Source of the DNA: Paracoccaceae bacterium
Lineage (GTDB): Bacteria > Pseudomonadota > Alphaproteobacteria > Rhodobacterales > Rhodobacteraceae
Direction of reading: 5' to 3'
Assembly: GCA_027489355.1 (NCBI GenBank)
Contig: JAIXZY010000049.1
Coordinates: 124,001 to 188,000, forward strand
Length of the DNA stretch: 64,000 nucleotides
Below the pieces are notes generated by a model. It had not been told where the DNA came from. It did not search any database and was given only the letters and a program-made list of their open reading frames with translations. Below, in pieces: positions 41,155 through 54,336 of this stretch; positions within the stretch are counted from its first letter, which is position 1; every line of letters starts with the position of its first letter. The position numbers were made by a program, and so were the translations under genes.

Positions 41155-42441
41155 ATGGCAAAGAGCACGCGCCCCTTCTCGGGCTTCGAATTCATGATCG
41201 CCTGGCGCTACCTGCGCGCTCGGCGGGCCGAGGGCGGCGTCTCGGTCATGACCTGGATCAGCCTGATCGGGATCACGCTGGCGGTCTTTGCGCTGATCCT
41301 GACGCTGGCGGTCCGGGCAGGGTTCCGGGCCGAGTTCGTGGACACGATCCTTGGGGCCAACGCGCATGTCACGGTCTATTCCAGTGGTGTGGTGGGGGCG
41401 GACGGGCAGATGATCCGCGGCTTTACCGAGCCGGATGCGATGGCCGCGGCGATCGCCAAGGTGCCGGGCGTGACGCGGGCGGCGCCCTTGATCAAGGGCA
41501 AGCTGATGGTGTCGGACGGCGAGGACACCACGGGGGCCGAGGTCTACGGGATGCTGCCGAAGGATTTCGCGTCCATCCCGCGGATCGGGGCGGGGTCGGA
41601 CGCGATCGGGGATCTGGCGCGGTTTCCCGAAGGCATCGCGCTGGGATCAGGCGTTGCGCGGGAGTTGGGGGTCACGGTGGGCGACCGGGTGCGGCTGATC
41701 GCGCCCGGCGGTGTCAAGACGGCGATGGGAACGACGCCGAGGGTCAAGGCCTATGAGGTCGTCTACATCTTCACCGCCGGGCGCTACGACATCGACACGA
41801 CGCGGATCTACATGCCCTTTGTCGAGGCGCAGAGCTTCTTCAACAAGGAGGGGCAGGCCGACGAGATCGAGGTGATGGTCGAGAAGCCGGACGAGATCGA
41901 GAGCTATGGCAATGCGATCCTGCAGGCGGCGGGGCCGACGGGGATGCTTTGGACCTGGAAGGACAGTTCGGGCGCGTTCCTGCGGGCCCTGGACATCGAG
42001 GACAACGTGATGTTCGTCATCCTGTCGGTGCTGGTGCTGATCGCGGCGATGAACATCGTGTCGGGCCTGATCATGCTGGTGAAGAACAAGGGCCGCGACA
42101 TCGGCATCCTGCGGACGATGGGGCTGACCGAGGGGTCGGTCCTGCGGGTGTTCTTCATCTGCGGGGCGTTCACGGGGCTGGTGGGCACGGTGGCGGGGGT
42201 GGCGCTGGGCTGTGTCACCGCGCTGAACATCGACCAGATCATGAGCTTCATCAACTGGGTGAACGGGGCCGAGGTCTGGGATCCGTCGATCCGGGGTATC
42301 TATTCGCTGCCCGCCAAGCTGCAGCTTGGCGATGTGCTGTCGGCGGTGGCGCTGTCGCTGGGACTGTCCTTCATCGTCACCTTCTTCCCGGCCCGGCGCG
42401 CGGCGCGGATGAACCCGGTGGAGGCGCTGCGCTATGAGTGA
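41155..42441 (+). CDS. Lipoprotein-releasing ABC permease (LolC/LolE/LolF type)
   Basis: A 428-residue inner-membrane permease of the Lol system, which extracts mature lipoproteins from the inner membrane. The N-terminus [26 protein letters not shown] and first helix are followed by a large periplasmic domain and three C-terminal helices ([21 protein letters not shown], then [15 protein letters not shown], then [13 protein letters not shown]). The last residues [11 protein letters not shown] are typical. A single permease gene next to lolD suggests a LolF-like hybrid arrangement rather than LolC plus LolE. It overlaps lolD by 8 bp. Confidence 0.92.
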
Positions 42442-43108
42442 GATGCTGCGGCTGGACGGGGTCGAGAAGGGCTACAACCGGGGCAAGCCGTCCGAGGTGA
42501 TCGTTCTGCGCGGGGCATCGCTGACGGTGGCGCGGGGCGAGGTCGTGGCTCTGGTGGCCCCAAGCGGGGCGGGGAAGTCGACGCTTCTGCACATCGCGGG
42601 GCTGCTGGACGTGCCGGACAGCGGGACGGTGCAGCTGGACGGGCGCGAGATGGGGGGGCTGTCGGACCGCGCGCGGACGGAGGCGCGGCGGGATGAGGTG
42701 GGGTTCATCTACCAGTTCCACCATCTCTTGCCCGAGTTCACGGCGCTGGAGAATGTGGTGATCCCGCAGCTTGCGAACGGCGTGGCCAGGGCCGAGGCCG
42801 AAGCGCGGGGGATGGAGCTTCTGGGCAAGGTTGGCGTGGGCGCGCGGGCAGGGCACCGGCCGGAGGCGCTGTCGGGGGGCGAGCAGCAGCGGGTGGCCTT
42901 CTGCCGGGCGCTGGCGAACCGGCCGAAGCTTCTGCTGGCGGACGAACCCACGGGGAACCTGGACCCCGGAACCTCGGACCAGGTGTTCGGGGTGCTGATG
43001 GAGCTGGTGCGGTCGACCGGGCTGTCGGCGCTGATCGCCACGCACAATCTGGAGCTGGCGGCGCGGATGGACCGGGTGGTACGCTTGACCGCGGGGCGGG
43101 TGGAATGA
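42434..43108 (+). CDS. lolD: Lipoprotein-releasing ABC ATPase LolD
   Basis: A 224-residue ATPase that powers lipoprotein release. Walker A is APSGAGKST (unusual Ala instead of Gly at the first place), the Q-loop region is [19 protein letters not shown], the signature is [15 protein letters not shown] and Walker B is [12 protein letters not shown]. The QFHHLLPEF sequence is a LolD marker. It overlaps the permease gene and is followed by a cytochrome c gene. Confidence 0.95.
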
Positions 43109-43119
43109 GGAGACCTGGA

Positions 43120-43524
43120 ATGCGTTGGGGATGGATCGTGCTGCCGCTGGCGCTGGCGGCCTGCGTCGAGAAGGAGAAGGTCCCGACGGGTGCCGAGGAT
43201 TTCGCCAGCTTCTGTTCGGCCTGCCACGGGCTTTCGGGCAAGGGCGACGGGGCGATGGCGGCCGAGCTGGGCCGCAAGCCGGCGAACCTGACGCAGCTTT
43301 CGGCGAAGAACGGCGGTGCCTTTCCCGGCACAAGGGTGATGGCGAAGATCTGGGGCTATACCGGCGTTGCTCCGGGCCGTCAGGACAGCGCGTCGCCGAT
43401 GCCGGAGTTCGGGCCGCTTCTGCAGGGCGACCTGGTGCCCTATGACGGCGGCGACGGCATCGCCACCCCGACGCCGGTCCGGCTGGTGCAGATCGCGGAA
43501 TACCTGAAGAGCCTGCAGAAGTAG
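43120..43524 (+). CDS. Cytochrome c lipoprotein
   Basis: A 134-residue predicted lipoprotein with lipobox LALAAC and one heme site CSACH (about residues 33-37). The axial Met is probably in SASPMPEFGPL. The ATG at 43120 has AGGAG 7 nt upstream; an ATG at 43105 overlaps the lolD stop. It is class I-like in size. Behind LolCD it may itself be a cargo of the exporter, anchored to a membrane and donating or accepting electrons. Partner unknown. Confidence 0.88.
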   Translation: MRWGWIVLPLALAACVEKEKVPTGAEDFASFCSACHGLSGKGDGAMAAELGRKPANLTQLSAKNGGAFPGTRVMAKIWGYTGVAPGRQDSASPMPEFGPLLQGDLVPYDGGDGIATPTPVRLVQIAEYLKSLQK

Positions 43525-43531
43525 GAACCTT

Positions 43532-43548
43532 GCCGCAAGCGGTGCGGC
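43532..43548 (+). terminator. Hairpin after lolD-cytochrome operon
   Basis: GCCGCA/TGCGGC 6-bp stem with AGCGG loop, followed by TTCTG, 7 bp after the cytochrome c stop. A possible terminator, weak. Confidence 0.45.
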
Positions 43549-43626
43549 TTCTGCCACCTTGCGCTTTTTGGCAGCGGTCGGCGAAGGCCGCGGGTCGGCA
43601 GGCCGCGGTTCCCGGGGCAGACCGGG

Positions 43627-43650
43627 GCCTCCGGCGGGAGTATTTGGGAA
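43627..43650 (+). repeat. Dispersed repeat copy (GCCTCCGGCGGGAGTATTTGGGAA)
   Basis: Differs from the copy at 39586-39610 by GGAGT in place of GGGGAT around the shared TATTTGGG. It also lies in a gene-free block. Confidence 0.6.
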
Positions 43651-44254
43651 AAGAGCAAGCTGCGGGCGGGTCGATCATCCTGCGATCTGTCGACCTGGCT
43701 GGCGGCGGTGCGTGGGTTCCGAGGCAGCGGCGTCGCGCGAACGAAGCGGTTTCCTGTCTGCGGTTCCGGGCGCGGGCCGGTTTCGTATGGTGTTGGCCTT
43801 CGGCTGGTTTCGGGAGTGGTTTCCCTTCCGGGTCAGGGGTGGATTATGTCGGCCCGGACGCCGGGGGCGGTGATTTCAGGCACCGACGACAGTGCGTCCG
43901 TTCCTGGACGATGCCTGTGTCGGCGGGTGGATGGGGCGGGCAGCTCCGTCGTCGCTCCTGTGGGAAAACGGGTTTGCCCCGGAAGACGCCTCGGCTCGGG
44001 TCAGGACTGCGGTTTGCGGGCCAGGCGGGTTGGGGTCCAGCGCGCAACAGACTTGTTGCGGAGGGGGATGCACGGTCGATCCTGCAGCCAACTCGGCCGC
44101 GCGAAGGTCTGCACGATCGCGTATGGCTGGGCCGCTCCGTTCGGGACCAAAAGGCTGATGTGGGAGTGTAGGCCCGCCCCCTGCCGGTCGGATCGAGGAA
44201 CGGAGACTGATGGCATGCGCGGGTCGGGCGGTTGCTTCGCGCGCCCGGTGGGGA

Positions 44255-44831: not shown

Positions 44832-46553
44832 ATGGCTGGCCAGATAGCGGCGCGGATCGAGCTTGCCGTGACGGGAGCATTGGGCGGCGCCGCGCTGTGG
44901 GCCGCAATCGAGGCGATGTCGCAGGACCGGATCGCCGCCTTCCCGGCGCTGGCGCTGATCGTGTTCCTCTGCACCGCCTTCGGCGGAATGATGGCGATGG
45001 CGGGGCCGATCGGGCTGCGGCGCGCGGTGCCAAGGGCGGTCGCGCTGGGGCTTCTGGTCGGCGCGCTGGTCTGGCTGACCGGGCTGCGCTACGCCGAGGT
45101 GGGGGATTTCGCGCGGGGGGTGATCCCGGCGCTGGCGGCGTTCACCGTCGCGACGCTGCCCTTGCCCTTCCTGATCGCGCAGGCGCGTGGGCGGTGGAAC
45201 GACTATCCCGTCCTGTTCATGGAAGCCTGGTCCATCGCGATGCGCTTTGCCGCCGCGGGGGCGTTCACGGGGCTGGTCTGGCTGGTTCTGTACCTGTCGG
45301 ACGCGCTGTTGCAGATCGTCGGGATCGGTCTGATCGGGGCGCTTTTGCACGAGGAGCTGGTCACGCTGACGCTGGCCGGCGCGATCTTCGGCCTGGGGAT
45401 GGCGGTGATCCACGATCTTGCGGATTTCCTTTCCCCCTATGTGGTCCTGCGGGTGTTCCGGCTGTTCCTGCCGGTGGTCCTTGCGGTCATGGCGGTCTTT
45501 CTGCTGGCGCTACCGTTCCGCGGCCTGGACGGGCTGGCCGGGGACCTGTCGCCCGCGACCGTGCTGCTGGCCATGGTGGCCGGAGGCATTGCCCTGATCT
45601 CGATCGCCATCGACCAGACCGATGCCGAGGCGACGCACAGCCCGCTTCTGGTCCGCTGCGCGCAGGGCCTTGCGCTGATCCTGCCGGTGGCGGCGGGGCT
45701 GGCGCTTTGGGCGATCTGGCTGCGCGTGGCCGAGCGCGGCTGGTCGCCCGAGCGGATATTCGTCGTGCTGGTCGCCGCCACGGGGCTGGTCTACGGGCTG
45801 GTCTATGCCGTCGCGGTCCTGCGCGGCGCGGGCTGGATGGAGCGAATCCGGCAGGGGAACATCCGCATCGCGCTGGGGATCTGCGTGCTGGCCGCGCTGT
45901 GGCTGACGCCGGTGCTGAACGCCGAGCGGATCTCGGCCGCAAGCCAGCTGGCGCGGGTAGAGGCAGAGGGGCCGGAGGCGCTGGACCCGGTCGCGCTGCG
46001 CGGCTGGGGCAAGCCCGGGGGCGAGGTACTGGCGGTGCTTGAGGCGCGCGCGAAGGAGCCGGGGCAGGAGGCGCTGGCCGCGGCGCTTGCCGGCGAGGGG
46101 GGCGCCGCCGAAAGCGACCGTCCGTCGCTGGCGGCAGAGCTTGCGGTGGTGCTTCCGGTGCAGCCGGCCTCGGCCACGGGGATGCGGGACGTGATCCTGG
46201 GCGCTGCCGAGGAGTACCAGCTGCAGGACTGGCTGGGCGCCTGCGGCAGCGGTCCGGACGGCGCCGCGCCGGGTTGTCTTCTGGTGGTGGCCGACCTTCT
46301 GCCCTTGCGCCCCGGCGAGGAGGCGATGCTGTTCCTGCAGCGCAGCGTGGATTACACCGAGATCGGCGGGCTCTACCTGGACGACGGTGGCAGGGTGCTC
46401 TGGCGGCCGGCGGCGCACCCGGACGGGCGCTACATCACCCCGGCCGAGGCCGCTGCGCTGCTGCGGCAGTACCAGGAGGCCCCGCCCCCTGTCACCGCGG
46501 CCGAGCTGAACCAGCTGGGGACGGGAGACGGCGCGCTGGTCCTTCTGCCATGA
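44832..46553 (+). CDS. DUF4153 domain membrane protein
   Basis: A 573-residue integral-membrane protein with about eleven hydrophobic helices up to residue 390, then a soluble C-terminal domain rich in Ala/Glu (EGPEALDPVALRGWGKPG and onward). The DUF4153 pattern fits (WNDYPVLFMEAWSIAMRFAAAGAFTGLVWLVLYLS with DALLQIVGI). Function unknown. The GGGAGACACAG before the ATG is a good ribosome site. It precedes the H-NOX-like gene by 62 bp. Confidence 0.82.
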   Translation: MAGQIAARIELAVTGALGGAALWAAIEAMSQDRIAAFPALALIVFLCTAFGGMMAMAGPIGLRRAVPRAVALGLLVGALVWLTGLRYAEVGDFARGVIPALAAFTVATLPLPFLIAQARGRWNDYPVLFMEAWSIAMRFAAAGAFTGLVWLVLYLSDALLQIVGIGLIGALLHEELVTLTLAGAIFGLGMAVIHDLADFLSPYVVLRVFRLFLPVVLAVMAVFLLALPFRGLDGLAGDLSPATVLLAMVAGGIALISIAIDQTDAEATHSPLLVRCAQGLALILPVAAGLALWAIWLRVAERGWSPERIFVVLVAATGLVYGLVYAVAVLRGAGWMERIRQGNIRIALGICVLAALWLTPVLNAERISAASQLARVEAEGPEALDPVALRGWGKPGGEVLAVLEARAKEPGQEALAAALAGEGGAAESDRPSLAAELAVVLPVQPASATGMRDVILGAAEEYQLQDWLGACGSGPDGAAPGCLLVVADLLPLRPGEEAMLFLQRSVDYTEIGGLYLDDGGRVLWRPAAHPDGRYITPAEAAALLRQYQEAPPPVTAAELNQLGTGDGALVLLP

Positions 46554-46615
46554 CGCAGAGGTTTCGTTAACCGATGCGGGATAGTGTCGTCCGGGAAACC
46601 GTCCTGGGGTCCGAG

Positions 46616-47191
46616 ATGGATGCGCTGCTGCTGCGGTCCTTGCAAAGCTACGTGATCGATACCTTCGGCCCGGACCGCTGGCAGGCGGTGTGCCGCCGGG
46701 CCGAGCTTGCGGTCAGCACCTTCGAGCCGATGCTGCATTACGACCTGGGCACCGCGGACCGCATCGCCCAGGTCGCGGCCGAGGTTCTGGGCCGTCCCGT
46801 TGACGCGATCTGGGAGGATGTGGGGATTCACCTGGTCACCCATCCCGACCGGGAAGGCATCCGCCGCCTGTTGCGGTTCGGCGGCGTCTCTTTTGCCGAC
46901 TTCCTGCATTCGCTTGAGGAGTTGCCGGGCCGCGCCCGGCTGGCGCTGCCCGATCTGGATGTGCCCGAGGTCACGCTGGACGAACTGGGCGAGGACCGGT
47001 TCGAACTGCGCTGCCAGTCGCCATTGCGGGCCACGCAGCGGGTGCTGATCGGTCTCCTGCTGGCGATGGCCGACGACTATGGCGCGCTGTGCGTGATCTC
47101 GGCCGAGGCGGGGGATTGCACCTCGATTGCCGTGCTGGACCGTGGCCATGCCAAGGGGCGGCGGTTCGACCTTGCGGTGCCGGAGGGTTAG
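46616..47191 (+). CDS. H-NOX-like (heme-NO-binding fold) sensor protein without proximal His
   Basis: A 191-residue protein of the HNOB/H-NOX fold: MDALLLRSLQSYVIDTFGPDRW at the start, then FLHSLEELPGRARLALPDL, where canonical members have the proximal heme His after the LxxL stretch (about residue 102-105). Here that position is Pro104. The YxSxR heme-propionate motif also appears degenerate (CQSPLRA). ATG 46616 gives the family N-terminus; an upstream ATG at 46574 is in frame. The following gene has the HNOBA-GGDEF architecture, so this is probably its sensor. It may bind heme differently, another ligand, or none; His98 is a possible alternative. Confidence 0.78.
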   Translation: MDALLLRSLQSYVIDTFGPDRWQAVCRRAELAVSTFEPMLHYDLGTADRIAQVAAEVLGRPVDAIWEDVGIHLVTHPDREGIRRLLRFGGVSFADFLHSLEELPGRARLALPDLDVPEVTLDELGEDRFELRCQSPLRATQRVLIGLLLAMADDYGALCVISAEAGDCTSIAVLDRGHAKGRRFDLAVPEG

Positions 47192-47193
47192 GG

Positions 47194-48195
47194 ATGCGAG
47201 CAGACCGCCCCGACCAAAGGATCGAGATGGACAGCGGCGCGCTGGCGCATTTCATGCCGATGCACCTCTTGCTGGACAGCGAGGGACGCGCGCTGAGCTA
47301 CGGGCCGACGCTTGCACGCGTCCTGCAGGACGCGGCGCGTTCCGGCGCGCTGTTCGAGGAGCTGTACGAGGTGCGCTCGCCCGGCGGCGCGGTGACGATT
47401 GACGAAGTTCTGGCGCGGGGCGGTCACCGCTTTCGGCTGATGCCGCGGAACGGGCTGCGCGCGGGCCTGCGGGGGCTGGGACTGCGCCTGCCGGGCTCGG
47501 GGGCGGTTCTGGTGAACCTGTCCTTCGGTATCGACCTGACCACGGCGGTGCGCGAACTGGCGCTGACCGATGCGGACTTCGCCGCGACCGATCTGGCGAT
47601 GGAGCTGCTGTACATGGCGGAGGCCAACGCGGCCGTCACGCGTGAGCTGCGGGGGCTGAACCTGCGACTGGAAGGCGCGCGGATCGCGGCCGAGGAAGAG
47701 GCGCTGACCGATCCGTTGACCGGCCTGCGCAACCGACGGGCGGCAGACCTGGTGCTTGACCGGCTGTGCAGCGCGCGGGCGGGTTTCGGGCTGCTGCACA
47801 TGGACCTCGACTACTTCAAGGCGGTGAACGACGAGCTGGGCCACGCCGCCGGCGACTTCGTGCTGGAGACGGTGGGACGCATCCTGCGGGACCAGCTTCG
47901 CGCCGAGGATTGCGCGGCGCGGGTTGGGGGCGACGAATTCGTGATCATCGTGGCGAACCGCACTGACCCCAGGACGCTGCAGGCCATCGCCGAACGCATC
48001 ATCGCCCGCATCTCGCAACCGATGGAGTTCGAGGGGCGGATCTGCCGGGTCTCGGCCAGCATCGGGATTGTCCGGTCCACCGACCTTGCGCTGCCCGAGC
48101 CGCCGCAGCTTCTGGCCGCCGCGGACCGGGCGCTTTACGCGGCAAAGCACGCGGGCCGGGGGCGGGCGGTGCTGCTGGCCCCGACCGGAGAGTGA
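47194..48195 (+). CDS. HNOBA-GGDEF diguanylate cyclase
   Basis: A 333-residue protein. Residues 15-150 form an H-NOX-associated PAS-like domain (HFMPMHLLLDSEGRALSYGPTLARVL, as in the beta subunit of soluble guanylate cyclase), followed by a coiled coil (AVTRELRGLNLRLEGARIAAEEEAL) and a GGDEF cyclase with active site GGDEF at 245-249. An inhibitory RxxD (RAED, 236-239) lies five residues before it. It would make c-di-GMP under control of the upstream H-NOX-like protein, which ends 2 bp before its ATG. GGAGG precedes the start. Confidence 0.9.
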   Translation: MRADRPDQRIEMDSGALAHFMPMHLLLDSEGRALSYGPTLARVLQDAARSGALFEELYEVRSPGGAVTIDEVLARGGHRFRLMPRNGLRAGLRGLGLRLPGSGAVLVNLSFGIDLTTAVRELALTDADFAATDLAMELLYMAEANAAVTRELRGLNLRLEGARIAAEEEALTDPLTGLRNRRAADLVLDRLCSARAGFGLLHMDLDYFKAVNDELGHAAGDFVLETVGRILRDQLRAEDCAARVGGDEFVIIVANRTDPRTLQAIAERIIARISQPMEFEGRICRVSASIGIVRSTDLALPEPPQLLAAADRALYAAKHAGRGRAVLLAPTGE

Positions 48196-48219
48196 CCCTG
48201 CCGGAGAGCGGAAGCCGCG

Positions 48220-49257
48220 CTAGGCGACCGGCAGCAGCCAGAGCGCCTCGGGCGGGAGGGAGACGGTCACCTCGGCTCCCACGCTCAGGCTCGTGGCCTC
48301 ATCCGGGGTGGTCAGCGCCTGAAGGGTGACACCTTGGGCGGTCAGTGTCACCCGGGTCTGCGTGCCAAGGAAGGTCACTGCGTCGATCCGCGCGGACACC
48401 GGGTTCGGTCCGGGACGAAGGCGCAGCGCCTCGGAGCGGATGGTCAGGACATGTGCCCCCTCGGGCGCGCCGGGGGGAAGGGTCAATGCGCCAAGCGCCG
48501 CATGGAACTGCCCGCTTTCGGATCGACCGGGCAGGAAGTTCGTCCCGCCGAAGAAGCGCGCCACCGCTTGCGAAGCGGGGCGGCGGTAGAAGTCCTGCGG
48601 CGGGCCGTGCTGCGCAAGCCGGCCATCGAGCATCAGCGCAATGCGGTCGGCAAGGGCAACCGCTTCGGACTGGTCATGGGTGACGACCACCGTGGTAATC
48701 CCGGTTTCCTGCTGAAGCGTGCGGATGAGAGCGCGCATCTCGTCCCGGAGGCCGGGGTCGAGGCTGGACAGGGGTTCGTCCAGGAGAAGGACTCGGGGTT
48801 GCAGGACCAGCGCCCGGGCGAGGGCCGCGCGCTGCTGCTGGCCACCGGACAGGGCCGAGGGGCGGCGGTCGCCAAGTCCGTCGAGGCGGACACGGGCCAG
48901 CATGTCCTGCGCGCGGGCCGCGATCTCGGCCGGGGGCAGGTGGCGCATCCGCAGGCCGAAGCCGACGTTCTGGGCCACGGTCAGATGTGGAAAGAGAAGC
49001 GGATTCTGGAACACCATCGCCACTCCGCGCCGTTCCGGGGGCAGGGGGGTGATGGGGCTGCCGTCCAGCGTGACCTCGCCCGTGTCGGGGGTCAGAAGGC
49101 CCGCGATCAGCTTCATCGTCGTGGTCTTACCGCAGCCCGAGGGACCGAGCAGCGCGGTCAGGCTGCCGCTGGCGACGGTGAGGTCAAGGCCGTGGACGGC
49201 GGCTTGGCCGGCTCCGGGGTAGCTTTTGCGCAGGCCGTGCAGGGCAAGTGTCGTCAT
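48220..49257 (-). CDS. ABC importer ATPase (spermidine/thiamine/YnjD type)
   Basis: A 345-residue ATPase with Walker A GPSGCGKTTT, signature LSGGQQQRAALARALVLQPR and Walker B LLLDEPLSSLD, then a C-terminal TOBE-like regulatory domain (LTIRSEALRLRPGPNPVSARIDAVTFLGTQTRVT). It is the last gene of a four-gene importer operon and overlaps the upstream permease gene by 4 bp. A closely related set is the YnjBCD/ThiBPQ-like group. The start at 49257 is used; the frame is open further upstream inside the permease. Confidence 0.92.
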   Translation of the reverse strand: MTTLALHGLRKSYPGAGQAAVHGLDLTVASGSLTALLGPSGCGKTTTMKLIAGLLTPDTGEVTLDGSPITPLPPERRGVAMVFQNPLLFPHLTVAQNVGFGLRMRHLPPAEIAARAQDMLARVRLDGLGDRRPSALSGGQQQRAALARALVLQPRVLLLDEPLSSLDPGLRDEMRALIRTLQQETGITTVVVTHDQSEAVALADRIALMLDGRLAQHGPPQDFYRRPASQAVARFFGGTNFLPGRSESGQFHAALGALTLPPGAPEGAHVLTIRSEALRLRPGPNPVSARIDAVTFLGTQTRVTLTAQGVTLQALTTPDEATSLSVGAEVTVSLPPEALWLLPVA

Positions 49258-50057
49258 GGCCGCGCTCCCGAGACCAGGGCGGTGTTGCGGCCGGTGATCT
49301 GCCGGGCGGTGAGCGCAAGGATCAGAAGGCCGGGCAGGATGTAAAGCAGCGCAATGGCCGCGGTCAGGTCGTTCCGGCCCGCGGCGGCGAAGCCGTAGAG
49401 AAGCAGCGGCAGGGTCTGTACCCGGCCGCCGCCGACGGCGAGGGTGAGCAGGTATTGCGACCAGGACACGAGGAAGGAGAAGAGCGCGGCGGTCAACAGG
49501 CCGGGCAGGATCGCGGGGAGCGTCACCGTCCGGAACGCCTGCCACGGCGTCGCGCCCAGCGTGCGGGCCTGCTGTTCATACGTCGGGTCGAAGCGCGAGA
49601 AGACGGCGGCGAGGACCAGCGTCATGTAGGGCAGGACCGGGACGAGATGGGCGAGGATTACCCCCGCGACCGTCCCGGCAAGGCCCGCGCGCAAGAGGAT
49701 GCCATGCAGGCCGAAGACCACGGCGATGCCCGGCAGGATCGCCGGCGCGAGCAGGAGCAGGACGACGAGACCCCGGCCGCGGAAGCGGTAGAGGCCAAGC
49801 GCGCGCCCTGCGGGCAGGCCCACCAGCGCGGCGATCAGCGTGGTGGCGGTGGCGATCAGGGTGGTGATGCCGAAGCTTTCCAGCACGCCCGACTGCGGCG
49901 AAAGGGCATAGGCCCATGCCGTGGTGGAGAGCTCGGCCGGCAGGATGTCCGGAAAGCGCCAGCCCTGCGCCAGCGACCAGACTGCCAGCGGCAAGAGCGG
50001 CAGGATCAGGAAGGCCATCAGCGCCAGCGCGGCGAGGGTCCGCAGGCTAGTCGACAT
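49254..50057 (-). CDS. ABC importer permease (second)
   Basis: A 267-residue permease with about six helices and the EAA-type cytoplasmic loop (ARTLGATPWQAFRTVTLPAILPG). The first helix is LALMAFLILPLLPLAVWSL. It overlaps the first permease gene by 11 bp, so the two are co-translated. In E. coli YnjC these two halves are one fused protein; here they are separate genes. Ligand unknown. Confidence 0.9.
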   Translation of the reverse strand: MSTSLRTLAALALMAFLILPLLPLAVWSLAQGWRFPDILPAELSTTAWAYALSPQSGVLESFGITTLIATATTLIAALVGLPAGRALGLYRFRGRGLVVLLLLAPAILPGIAVVFGLHGILLRAGLAGTVAGVILAHLVPVLPYMTLVLAAVFSRFDPTYEQQARTLGATPWQAFRTVTLPAILPGLLTAALFSFLVSWSQYLLTLAVGGGRVQTLPLLLYGFAAAGRNDLTAAIALLYILPGLLILALTARQITGRNTALVSGARP

Positions 50058-50904
50058 GGCGGGACCGGGCAGCGCGGGCATAAAGCGCAAGCAGGACCAG
50101 ACCGATTCCGGCGATGAGGACGGCCATCGCCATCGCCTCGGGCCGGGCGGCAAGGTCGGTGTCGTTCGCTGCTTGCCAGGCCAGGACCGGCAGCGCCTTC
50201 GGAGCATGGGCGCCCAGGATGAGCGGGACCTCGTAAGCGCCGAAGGCAAAGGCGAAGACCAGCGCCGAGGCCGCCATCAGTCCCGGCAGCATCAGGGGCA
50301 GCAGGACATGCGCGAAGGCCTGCCAGCGCGTGGCCCCCAGCGTGCGTGCGGTGGCCTCGTGATCCTCGCCCAGGGCCTGGAGGTTCGCCAGCAGGATCAG
50401 TGTGATGAAGGGCAGCTCTTTCCAGACGTAAAGCAGGATGATGCCGATGGCCCAGGGGTCCTGGGTCAGCGCCGGGAAGTCCTGCGGCCCGGCGATCAGG
50501 CCCGCGGCCTTGGCAAGGCGGGCGAAGCTGCCGGATTGCGAGACGAGGTAGAGCATGCCGATGGCGCCGACGATGTGCGGGACCGTCAGGTTCAGCTGGA
50601 TCAGGAAGCTGACGAGCGCACGGCCGGGGAAGCTTTGACGCAAGAGAAGCGCCGCCGCCATCGCGAGCAGGGCAGCGATCGCGGTCGAGGCCGTGGCGAT
50701 CCAGAGCGAGAGGCCAAGCGACCGCAGGAACCCCGGCGCGGTCAAGACGGCGGTATAGGCGGCAAGGTCGGGTTCGGTCAGGCCAAGCGCGGGCATGTAG
50801 CGGAAGGACCGCAAGAGCGTGAGCCCAAGCCCGGTCAGGAAAAGCCCGCCCAGCACCAGAAGCGCGGGGGCGAGCATCAGGGCGATACGGCTGCGGTCGG
50901 TCAC
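50047..50904 (-). CDS. ABC importer permease (first)
   Basis: A 285-residue permease: N-terminal helix IALMLAPALLVLGGLFLTGL, the periplasmic FRYMPALGLTEPDLAAYTAVL segment, and the EAA loop ARTLGATRWQAFAHVLLPLMLPG. It follows the binding-protein gene by 72 bp. It forms a heterodimeric channel with the permease at 49254-50057. Confidence 0.9.
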   Translation of the reverse strand: MTDRSRIALMLAPALLVLGGLFLTGLGLTLLRSFRYMPALGLTEPDLAAYTAVLTAPGFLRSLGLSLWIATASTAIAALLAMAAALLLRQSFPGRALVSFLIQLNLTVPHIVGAIGMLYLVSQSGSFARLAKAAGLIAGPQDFPALTQDPWAIGIILLYVWKELPFITLILLANLQALGEDHEATARTLGATRWQAFAHVLLPLMLPGLMAASALVFAFAFGAYEVPLILGAHAPKALPVLAWQAANDTDLAARPEAMAMAVLIAGIGLVLLALYARAARSRHVD

Positions 50905-50976
50905 CTTGGGGCCTTTCGGACAGAGGGCGGCAGAGTGCGCGACAGCGGGCCGACAGGCAAGCGACGCCGCAGGGCG

Positions 50977-52191
50977 TCAGTTGCCGACGGTCTCCATCCA
51001 GCCCTTTTCGATGGCGGTCAGCCAGTCGGCCTGCAGCTCTGGCAGCGCGGCCTTCGCAAGCTCGGACGCGGGGATAACCGAGGGGTGCGTCTTGATCGCG
51101 GCGAAGCCCGACTGCACCTCGGGCGCGGTGCGGGCGATCTCGATGGCGGGGGCGGCGCCCCAGACCTCGGTCTTGGCCTTTTCCAGCTGCGCCTCACCCG
51201 ACAGGAGCAGGTTCTGCACCACCATCGCGGCGGCCTTGTTGGGCGAGTTGAACGGGATCAGCGTGTAGTTGGTATTGCCAATGGTGCCGTCGGACAGGCC
51301 AAAGGACCGCGTCGTGTCCGGCCAGGTGCCGGCCTCGACGGCCAGCCCGAACTGCGCGGGGTCGTAGTTGAAGCTGAAGTCGACCTCACCATTGGCGAAA
51401 AGCTCGTTCAGTTGGGTGACCGTGGTGGGGTAGGTAGCACCCTCGCGCCAGAGGGAGGGCTCGATCTCGTTCAGGATCGCCCAGGTCTTTGCGGAAACCT
51501 CGTCGAATTTCGCCTGGTCGAAGGGGCCGAGCAGGCTGTCCGGCCCGCCCGCGGCATGGATGAAGACGTGACGCAGGAAAGCCGAGCCGGTGAAGTCGGG
51601 CGGCGCGGGATAGGTGAAGCGGCCGGGGTTGGCCTTGATCCAGTCCAGGAGCGCGGCCATGTCCGCCGGAGGCTCGGGCGTTTTGGCGCTGTCGTGGGCG
51701 AAGGCGAACTGGACGGTGTTCCACGGGACCTCGCAGCCATCGACCGGGACGCCGAAGTCGTTGGCGACGGCGGGGTTGTCCCAGTTGACGAGGCCGTCGT
51801 TCGGCAGCATCGCCGTATAGCCGCAGAAGGCGAGGTCGGCCTGTTTCATCGAGCGGAAGTTCTCGCCGTTGATCCAGATGAGATCGACGGACCCCGCGTC
51901 GGTCACGCCGGCCTCTTTCTCGGTCAGGACCTGGTTCACGATGTCGGCGGCGTCGGTGATCGGGACGCGGTTCAGCGTGATGTCGTAGTCGGCCTTGAGC
52001 CTTTCGGCGACGTAGCCGTCGACATAGGCGTTGATCGTGTCGGAGCCGCCCCACATGAACCAGTTCACCGTGCCGCCGCGCGCCTGGTCGACCACCTGCT
52101 CCCAGGTCATGCCCTTCAGCGCATCGCCGTCGGAGGTGTCGGCCAGGGCGGCGGCGGACAGAAGCAGAAGCGCGGCAAGGGAACGAAACAT
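50977..52191 (-). CDS. ABC importer substrate-binding protein (YnjB-like)
   Basis: A 404-residue periplasmic protein with signal peptide MFRSLAALLLLSAAALA. The mature chain has WEQVVDQARGGTVNWFMWGGSD (the type-II binding fold N-lobe start) and VDLIWINGENFRSMKQADL, both recognisable in YnjB-like proteins. Start 52191 is chosen for the signal peptide and GGAG site; a frame open to 52221 is not used. The solute is not known for this family. It is the first gene of the importer operon. Confidence 0.88.
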   Translation of the reverse strand: MFRSLAALLLLSAAALADTSDGDALKGMTWEQVVDQARGGTVNWFMWGGSDTINAYVDGYVAERLKADYDITLNRVPITDAADIVNQVLTEKEAGVTDAGSVDLIWINGENFRSMKQADLAFCGYTAMLPNDGLVNWDNPAVANDFGVPVDGCEVPWNTVQFAFAHDSAKTPEPPADMAALLDWIKANPGRFTYPAPPDFTGSAFLRHVFIHAAGGPDSLLGPFDQAKFDEVSAKTWAILNEIEPSLWREGATYPTTVTQLNELFANGEVDFSFNYDPAQFGLAVEAGTWPDTTRSFGLSDGTIGNTNYTLIPFNSPNKAAAMVVQNLLLSGEAQLEKAKTEVWGAAPAIEIARTAPEVQSGFAAIKTHPSVIPASELAKAALPELQADWLTAIEKGWMETVGN

Positions 52192-52279
52192 GGGAACTCC
52201 GGGATCGGGACTGGCGCCCATGAACCCGATAACCGCATGAAATGCCAGTCACAGGCGCGTTGGCGGATTGTAACGGAGG

Positions 52280-52354
52280 TGGCAGCCCGTAGGGGAGTCG
52301 AACCCCTCTTACCTGGTTGAAAACCAGGTGTCCTAACCGATAGACGAACGGGCC
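52280..52354 (-). tRNA. tRNA-Glu (UUC)
   Basis: On the minus strand this folds as a full cloverleaf: acceptor GGCCCGT/ACGGGCT, anticodon stem CCTGG/CCAGG with loop TTTTCAA (anticodon TTC), T-arm AGGGG TTCGACT CCCCT and encoded CCA. It is identical over 75 nt to the copy at 55250. Confidence 0.95.
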
Positions 52355-52530
52355 ACTGACGCGCCTGTTACAGGGGCGCGCGGGCGGGCGCAAGGGGTTG
52401 CAGAAGCGGGTTGCGCTGGATCAATGTCAGGCGCGGTCCATTCTGCAAGACCTGCCTCGGCGGTCGGCCAGTGGCTTCGTCCGCCCCGGCCACTTGCGAA
52501 AGCTACCACGGACAGAGACAGGACTGCGCG

Positions 52531-54336
52531 ATGCCGAAAAAAGCCGAGAAACTGCCTCATCCGCTGCCGGTTCCGATCGCGGCGCCCGTGTCGGTCGCAC
52601 CGGTCGCGCAGCCGACCGGACCCCAGGCCGAGCATCGCTATCAGACGCTTGACCGGGGCCTGCGCGCGGCCATCGCGCGGCGGACGGGTGGGGTGTCGAC
52701 CCATGCCTTCCTCAGCGCCTGGGCCGACTGGGCCTTTCACATGGCGGGGTCGCCGGGGCGTCAGCTGGAACTGGCGGAACATGCGGTCCAGAACGCGCAG
52801 AAGCTGGTGTCGCATGCCCTGCGGCTGGACCCCGAGGCACCTCCGCCCTTCGCTCCAAAGCCCTATGACCACCGCTTCGACGCCCCGGCCTGGGCGGCCC
52901 CGCCCTTTGCGCTGTGGCAGCAGGGATTCCTGGCGGTGCAGGACTGGTGGGACCGCGCGACAGATCACCTGCGCGGCCTGCGCCCCGAGGACGCCGACCG
53001 CGTCCGCTTCATGGCGCGGCAGACGCTGGACGTGGTCTCGCCCTCGAACTTCCCCGCGACGAACCCCGAGATTCTGGCCGCGACGCTGAAGACCGGGGGC
53101 CGCAACCTGACCCAGGGCGCCACCCATTTCGCGCAGGACATGATGAAGCTTGCAACCGGCGCGCACGACCCGATGCCCGAGGGGTTCCGGCTGGGCGAAA
53201 CCCTGGCCTGCACGCCGGGCACGGTGGTCCTGCGCACGGACCTGTTCGAACTGATCCAGTATGCGCCGCAGACCCCGAAGGTCGAGGCCGAGCCGATCCT
53301 GATCGTCCCGGCCTGGATCATGAAGTACTACATTCTGGACCTGTCGCCGCAGAACTCTCTGGTCAACTACCTGGTCGGGCAGGGGTTCACGGTCTTCATG
53401 ATCTCGTGGTGCAACCCGGGTGCGGACCAGGCCGATCTGTCGCTGGAAACCTATCGCCGCGATGGGGTGATGGCTGCGCTGAACGCTGTCGGGAAGATCG
53501 TCCCGGAGCGCAAGGTCCATGCCATCGGCTATTGCCTGGGGGGCACGATCCTGGCCATCGCGGCAGCGACCATGGCGCGGGACGGAGACGACCGGCTGGC
53601 GAGCCTGTCGCTTCTGGCCGCTCAGGTCGATTTTGCCGAGGCGGGAGAGCTTCTCCTGTTCGTCGACGAAAGCCAGGTCGCCTTCCTGGAAGACATGATG
53701 TGGGACCAGGGCTATCTGGACCGACCGCAGATGGCGCGGACCTTCTCGACCATCCGGTCCGAGGACCTGATCTGGTCGCGCGCGGTCCGCCGCTATTTCC
53801 TGGGCGCGGAAGAGGCGCTGTCGGACATGGACGTCTGGGTCATGGACACCACCCGGATGCCGGCGCGGATGCATTCGGAATATCTGCGCGGGCTGTTCCT
53901 GGAAAACCGGTTGACCGCAGGCCGCTTCGCCGTCGAAGGCAGCGTGATCGCGCTGAAGGACATCGCCGCGCCGATGTTCGTGGTGGCGACCGAGAAGGAC
54001 CACATCGCGCCGTGGAAATCGGTCTACAAGACGCAGCTTTTCACCGATGGCGACCTGACATTCCTGCTGACCAGCGGCGGGCACAACAGCGGCATCGTCA
54101 ATCCGCCGGGCCATCCCCGCAGCCGCTTCCGCTGGACGCATCGCCCGGCCGGGGCGCATTACCTTGGCCCGGAGGAATGGCCGGACCGGGCGACATCGGC
54201 CCAGGGGTCCTGGTGGCCGGCCTGGAAGGACTGGCTGCGGTCGCAGGGCAGCGGTCAGGCCGATCCGCCGCCCACCGGGGCAAGGAGCCTGCCTCCCCTT
54301 GGACCCGCGCCGGGGACCTATGTCTTCCAGACCTGA
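52531..54336 (+). CDS. phaC: Class I polyhydroxyalkanoate synthase PhaC
   Basis: A 601-residue PHA synthase that polymerises (R)-3-hydroxyacyl-CoA. The N-terminal domain contains FPATNPEILAATLKTGGRNL; the lipase-box-like active site is GYCLGG with nucleophile Cys335; the rest of the triad is Asp in KDHIAPWKS and His in SGGHNSGIVNPPGH. ATG 52531 is preceded by CAGGACTG; a frame open to 52411 is not needed. phaA, phaB and phaE-type partners are absent from this window. It lies between two identical tRNA-Glu genes. Confidence 0.97.
   Translation: MPKKAEKLPHPLPVPIAAPVSVAPVAQPTGPQAEHRYQTLDRGLRAAIARRTGGVSTHAFLSAWADWAFHMAGSPGRQLELAEHAVQNAQKLVSHALRLDPEAPPPFAPKPYDHRFDAPAWAAPPFALWQQGFLAVQDWWDRATDHLRGLRPEDADRVRFMARQTLDVVSPSNFPATNPEILAATLKTGGRNLTQGATHFAQDMMKLATGAHDPMPEGFRLGETLACTPGTVVLRTDLFELIQYAPQTPKVEAEPILIVPAWIMKYYILDLSPQNSLVNYLVGQGFTVFMISWCNPGADQADLSLETYRRDGVMAALNAVGKIVPERKVHAIGYCLGGTILAIAAATMARDGDDRLASLSLLAAQVDFAEAGELLLFVDESQVAFLEDMMWDQGYLDRPQMARTFSTIRSEDLIWSRAVRRYFLGAEEALSDMDVWVMDTTRMPARMHSEYLRGLFLENRLTAGRFAVEGSVIALKDIAAPMFVVATEKDHIAPWKSVYKTQLFTDGDLTFLLTSGGHNSGIVNPPGHPRSRFRWTHRPAGAHYLGPEEWPDRATSAQGSWWPAWKDWLRSQGSGQADPPPTGARSLPPLGPAPGTYVFQT

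Follow-up and report, generated by a model that had tools for sequence, protein, structure and literature searches.

This locus raises a question that a 2022 review (PMC8738867) puts in general terms: how does an H-NOX protein without a heme ligand sense NO or anything else? The window (the whole 64 000-nucleotide stretch of DNA that was analysed) contains a gene for an H-NOX-like protein in which proline replaces the proximal heme histidine, followed by a gene for an HNOBA-GGDEF diguanylate cyclase. The review (Lee-Lopez and Yukl 2022; PMC8738867) describes, in a sequence network at E<1e-47, a very large fifth cluster of H-NOX proteins, seeded by the H-NOX protein of Paracoccus denitrificans, in which the proximal His is found in <10% of the members, mostly with Pro instead, and in which there is no conserved Cys; it also asks how these group 5 proteins sense anything. 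The Pro-for-His substitution is therefore already in print, and the window protein joins a group for which a description exists. What is added here is the pairing of the two genes in 134 of 138 genomes, the purifying selection on the H-NOX gene and a conserved TTAA box upstream of it.

The gene pair and its products

The two ORFs lie head to tail on the same strand, the H-NOX-like one first. The first (46616–47191, +) encodes a protein of 191 aa, which is of the group 5 type and lacks the proximal His; the second (47194–48195, +) encodes the 333-aa cyclase and starts 2 bases past the H-NOX stop codon. The ORF at 46616–47191 was the single HNOB gene found when the genome that contains the window was searched. 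We prefer the start at 46616 over an in-frame ATG at 46574, because its column holds ATG or GTG in 59 of the 61 listed relatives (in one of the two others the contig ends there) and because the distance from the conserved TTAA box to this start is about 50 bases.

The sequence-only reading had proposed an H-NOX fold, and this is confirmed. The window protein matches the Pfam family HNOB with an E-value of 2.2e-19 (70.4 bits; the cut-off is 25.5), a family that is matched by every protein of alignment A1 (60 in all, counting that of the window). The AlphaFold2 model made from the 60 A1 rows (pLDDT 87.6, pTM 0.84) has Nostoc H-NOX (2o09) as its best solved Foldseek match (TM 0.78/0.81, E = 5.6e-11), followed by sGC beta and other bacterial H-NOX proteins. 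The window protein has this fold in common with the heme-binding H-NOX proteins (e.g. those of Nostoc, Shewanella and Caldanaerobacter) and with sGC beta. The alpha subunits of sGC carry a heme-less H-NOX domain beside a PAS domain, where it serves in regulation; that domain, however, is part of the cyclase chain, unlike the separate protein of the window, and its structural match to our model is only weak (8hbe_A, TM 0.49 by Foldseek).

The partner was likewise read correctly as an HNOBA-GGDEF protein with an intact active site and RxxD site. Its GGDEF domain is matched at 2.2e-38 (Pfam). The HNOBA match of the window cyclase taken alone (E = 0.0099, 15.8 bits) is under the Pfam cut-off of 23.4, but in alignment A2 (57 proteins, counting that of the window) 54 match HNOBA with an E-value of at most 0.1, the best being 6.7e-13. 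From the order of strands and helices in the model, the PAS-like HNOBA region spans about residues 14–111 (47233–47526, +); the secondary structure of the model also places a 36-residue linker helix (residues 135–170; 47596–47703, +) between HNOBA and GGDEF. The product-inhibition site RxxD reads RAED (residues 236–239; 47899–47910, +), with its R and D found in 184 out of 187 rows, and the active-site motif GGDEF (residues 245–249; 47926–47940, +) is found in 185 out of 187 rows. The AlphaFold2 model of the cyclase (pLDDT 88.0) consists of a PAS-like domain, a helix and a GGDEF domain, and the arrangement of these domains means little because the pTM is just 0.57. Foldseek ranks PAS-GGDEF-EAL proteins highest for this model and human sGC beta lower, and the whole-chain rmsd is large for all of them.

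The two genes are rarely found apart. Among 198 sampled genomes of the family, an H-NOX search found matches in 136 (in G004 the match is a canonical protein), and a search with the HNOBA region likewise found 136; comparing the two listings by hand, we found either gene in 138 genomes and both genes in 134. H-NOX is found alone in two genomes (the canonical protein of G004, and a fragment at a contig edge in G030) and HNOBA alone in two others (a 24-residue fragment at a contig edge in G028, and a match at a contig edge in G111). When loci are counted (some are repeats of one genome), a cyclase match lies at most 200 bases away on the same strand in 186 out of 199. The remaining 13 loci, which count against a reading based on pairing, have the cyclase further off on the same strand (nine loci), on the other strand (one locus) or without a match in the stretch examined (three loci). 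The pair in the window appears to be a Rhodobacteraceae-type hnoX-dgc operon.

The H-NOX gene is under purifying selection: its dN/dS is 0.15–0.28 in comparisons with eight relatives. A sequencing error or a pseudogene as the source of the proline codon was rejected as unlikely, because all four CCN codons are used at the proximal position among the 148 relatives with Pro and because of these low dN/dS values. We also rejected the idea that the proline is an oddity of one genome, as 148 of the 186 group 5 rows have it.

The surroundings of the pair are as follows. A 573-aa ORF with long hydrophobic stretches (44832–46553, +) ends 62 bases before the hnoX start and matches no Pfam family at E 1 or at E 0.01. 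On the other side, ABC transporter genes (48220–52221, −) face the hnoX pair and encode an ATPase with a TOBE domain, two permeases and a solute-binding protein. Two more long ORFs, at 52333–54159 (−; 608 aa) and 42377–43678 (−; 433 aa), have no Pfam match at E 0.01 and may be in a non-coding frame. In another genome, Phaeobacter sp. G2, a plasmid of 120 kb carries the hnoX-dgc pair, which follows a gene of the trimethylamine methyltransferase family (locus L221).

The proximal position among group 5 relatives

Pro104 (codon CCG; 46925–46927, +; Pro118 in the numbering of the longer ORF) aligns to Nostoc His105, with no gap through the proximal helix and with the top HMMER posterior mark. The former propionate motif YxSxR, located by alignment to Nostoc H-NOX, reads C-Q-S-P-L (47012–47026, +): its Tyr and Arg are lost and its Ser is kept. 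The proline at the proximal position and the altered YxSxR motif were both part of the sequence-only reading, and both stand. That reading also considered that His98 (46907–46909, +) might prove to be the proximal ligand; this candidate is rejected, as His98 lies six residues before the proximal position and aligns to Nostoc Glu99.

Relatives were drawn from a family-wide search and from a scan of named genomes. Out of 190 distinct proteins, three poorly trimmed ones (L028, L133 and L196) and a canonical one (L198) were removed, leaving 186 group 5 rows. The proximal column contains Pro in 148 of these rows, His in 11, Asn in five, Ala in four, Gln in four and Arg in three; the rarer residues are Gly (three), Lys (two), Ser (two), Thr (two), Asp (one) and Glu (one). 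In other words, 175 out of 186 relatives have a residue other than His. The column is not fixed, because it ranks only 72nd of 176 in conservation. The Y, S and R of YxSxR are found all together in none of the 186 rows, and its Tyr is present in just one. These counts (Pro 148 and His 11 of 186) can be set beside the published description of group 5 (mostly Pro, <10% His, no conserved Cys; PMC8738867), from which the window's group shows no difference in the features compared, with a GGDEF gene alongside.

Several other columns are invariant or nearly so in the group 5 rows, namely Pro117 (which aligns to Pro118 of Nostoc H-NOX), Gly70, Gly146 and the RRLLRFGG and MADDYG stretches. Gly70 and Gly146 are also invariant in alignment A1, and they may correspond to the conserved glycine hinges described for group 5 H-NOX proteins. 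No column of the 186 rows has a near-invariant His: the column of His98 has His in 129 rows, the column of His76 in 105, and a third His-rich column in 128 (the window protein has Asp there). Just one column has Cys in more than 40% of the rows (105 out of 186; Cys133 in the window protein). The columns aligned to those Nostoc positions that we presume to form the hydrophobic pocket remain hydrophobic. Trp66 of the window protein is at the place of Nostoc Leu67, and 29 of the 186 rows have Trp there. The three old columns of the propionate motif now hold mainly small or hydrophobic residues, and they are variable (conservation ranks 108, 157 and 167 of 176).

The proximal His is present in Nostoc H-NOX and in 15 out of 15 non-group-5 proteins, and is absent from the window protein. 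These 15 proteins come from the class as a whole, where 18 of the 385 genomes searched have HNOB: out of the 18 loci that were new in this search, 15 are of other H-NOX types (all with His, and 14 of 15 with YxSxR) and the remaining three are Pro-type. An alignment search of the order found matches in 237 out of 292 genomes, a number that also includes canonical proteins (e.g. in G448). In the FastTree phylogeny (built without L056 and L081, which are both incomplete), group 5 and the canonical proteins are split with a local support of 98, in a tree that has weak support at half of its inner forks and in which long branches come together.

Two published relatives help to place the window protein. 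Kumar and Spiro (2017; PMC5588039, which cites Iyer 2003 and Plate and Marletta 2013) reported that the axial His is absent in P. denitrificans H-NOX and likewise in that of Rhodobacter sphaeroides. In P. denitrificans HnoX/DgcA (Pden_3719/Pden_3720) the proximal place is taken by Pro, as in the window protein, which is about 35% identical to HnoX; we scored this position in the homologue of strain HAMBI_2443, taken to be HnoX. The P. denitrificans hnoX gene overlaps a GGDEF gene (PMC5588039). A P. denitrificans hnoX mutant forms less biofilm and a mutant without both predicted cyclases forms excess biofilm (c-di-GMP acts against biofilm in this species); the biofilm responds to NO, and the authors propose an inhibition of DgcA by H-NOX, along with an effect of NO that can be independent of both proteins (PMC5588039). 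According to a 2025 paper (PMC12582929), c-di-GMP in P. denitrificans extracts is below detection, leaving the mechanism without support from direct quantitation.

The second relative, Dinoroseobacter shibae H-NOX (Dshi_2815) with Dgc1, is listed as a heme NO sensor inhibiting Dgc1 (PMC8846402), and the inhibition is reported to occur on NO binding (PMC7232146, PMC8846402). It belongs to the same group and the same kind of gene pair and has lost YxSxR too, but it has His at the proximal place, unlike Pro104 of the window protein. In our collection we take locus L175 to be Dshi_2815, as it is the one match in a genome that shares 8 kb at 100% with D. shibae DFL 12 plasmids. The original paper on this protein pair is reportedly that of Bedrunka (2018).

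A conserved box upstream of the pair

A conserved promoter-like box is found at 46566–46587 (+), consisting of GTTAACC (46566–46572) and TAGTGT (46582–46587). TTAA is found between −80 and −25 of the start in 163 out of 186 loci, mostly near −50, as compared with 66 out of 3384 control windows; these control windows are random draws from the loci and presumably mostly coding and GC-rich, so that TTAA is rare there. A stricter control with a slightly different motif gives TTAAC or GTTAA in 133 out of 186 upstream regions vs 358 out of 3720 shuffles. When the loci are aligned on TTAA, T, A and T are found at offsets 15, 16 and 20 in 92, 117 and 103 of the 163 loci, respectively.

TTAA half-sites are typical of CtrA, and the box is perhaps related to CtrA. 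Not one of the 186 upstream regions has the complete CtrA site TTAA-N7-TTAA, and an ordinary sigma-70 promoter was found nowhere within 46400–48400. In published work on relatives, mutants of the CtrA phosphorelay in D. shibae and Phaeobacter inhibens have lower levels of hnox and its dgc (PMC12363192, PMC7232146), and a list of CtrA-regulated genes includes rcc02629, the Rhodobacter capsulatus cyclase adjoining an HNOX homologue (PMC9143464).

What a Pro-type H-NOX protein may do

The explanation that we consider probable is that a heme-free H-NOX protein binds the HNOBA/PAS region of its partner cyclase and restrains it. The fold, the missing ligand and motif, the gene coupling, the selection and the intact cyclase motifs are directly supported by the data above. 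The H-NOX-like protein would fold without heme; this is most likely because it has neither the proximal His nor the propionate motif, and the absence of heme from the Pro-type protein is accordingly the likeliest reading of its sequence. It would then bind the HNOBA/PAS region of the neighbouring cyclase as a protein partner (we infer the contact through HNOBA), and when bound it would restrain the synthesis of c-di-GMP. That H-NOX acts against the cyclase is taken from relatives, and for the Pro type it is suggested by the mutant phenotypes of P. denitrificans; control of c-di-GMP by the window protein would follow by analogy with the same relatives. The sequence-only reading of the pair, as a possible heme-independent sensor in control of c-di-GMP, is supported in part. 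The input may be NO, sensed through some other chemistry, or a different ligand occupying the former heme pocket; or there may be none, with transcription setting the dose.

It is unlikely, in our judgement, that the Pro-type protein has kept both its heme and its sensing of NO, and works in the manner of D. shibae H-NOX as an inhibitor dependent on NO. Iron would then be held by another residue (Cys133 or His98 could perhaps do so, which counts against a heme-free protein), or the heme would be kept by the hydrophobic pocket alone, and the pocket columns are indeed hydrophobic and Pro117 (Nostoc Pro118) invariant. The loss of YxSxR alone is no proof of heme loss either, because D. shibae H-NOX lacks the motif and is listed as a heme sensor. 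The inhibition of Dgc1 with NO reported for that homologue (PMC7232146, PMC8846402) and the NO response of P. denitrificans biofilm (PMC5588039) are also what such a sensor would lead one to expect. But Pro-type proteins are without both the His ligand and the propionate motif, and no other His or Cys is near-invariant in the group, the best ones in the window protein being His98 (129 of 186) and Cys133 (105 of 186).

Two further proposals, both quite improbable in their specific forms, are sub-cases of the heme-free inhibitor favoured above; the confidences attached to the different explanations are therefore not additive to one. According to one of them, a different small ligand in the former heme pocket sets the inhibition of the cyclase. 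Purifying selection acts on the fold and on most of the sequence, the old propionate-motif columns are mainly small or hydrophobic, and a synthetic compound has been placed in Nostoc H-NOX, judging by the title of PDB 4iae. Against it, the three propionate-motif columns are variable, so that contact of these residues with a single conserved ligand is less likely, and the bulky Trp66 is near the old pocket, where Nostoc has Leu67. We presume that the compound of 4iae sits at the heme site. According to the other proposal, the H-NOX protein senses nothing and is an obligate subunit, which would act by its amount alone under CtrA-type transcription. This agrees with the TTAA box (163 of 186 loci; GTTAA/TTAAC in 133 of 186 vs 358 of 3720 shuffles), with the lower levels of hnox and dgc in CtrA-phosphorelay mutants (PMC12363192, PMC7232146) and with the near-strict pairing of H-NOX and cyclase. 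However, both genes are seemingly in one operon, therefore the ratio of H-NOX to cyclase would hardly change; TTAA-N7-TTAA is found in 0 of 186 upstream regions, and a response to NO is reported for the protein of D. shibae.

A heme-free inhibitor in the window could be part of a family-wide turn of the H-NOX fold from heme gas sensor to heme-free regulator, in which the ligand and the propionate motif were lost together early, the heme site was repacked, and heme sensing persisted or returned in a few His lineages (D. shibae among them); we regard this scenario as tentative, and rather doubtful. Position 149 (the old Ser of YxSxR) is Trp or His in 17 out of 38 rows without Pro at position 118 (the proximal position in the longer-ORF numbering) vs five out of 147 rows with Pro. 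The association has a Fisher p of 9e-10 uncorrected for ancestry and ranks 125 of 14706 column pairs; columns 41, 122 and 132 covary with 118 as strongly as 149 does or more, and just three independent pairs are found on supported branches. This covariation hints that the old heme site was repacked; it is strong before ancestry is considered and not established once it is. Parsimony on 185 rows gives nine changes for His and 26 for Pro, of which the starred branches force just one and three, respectively.

If the Pro-type proteins are indeed free of heme, the label 'heme NO-binding protein' would be misleading for most group 5 members. The His- and Pro-bearing members of this one group, with the same kind of cyclase, offer a simple comparison for the question of sensing. 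Both a canonical H-NOX protein (with His and YxSxR) and a Pro-type protein are present in one genome of the same family (G219; loci L209 and L217).
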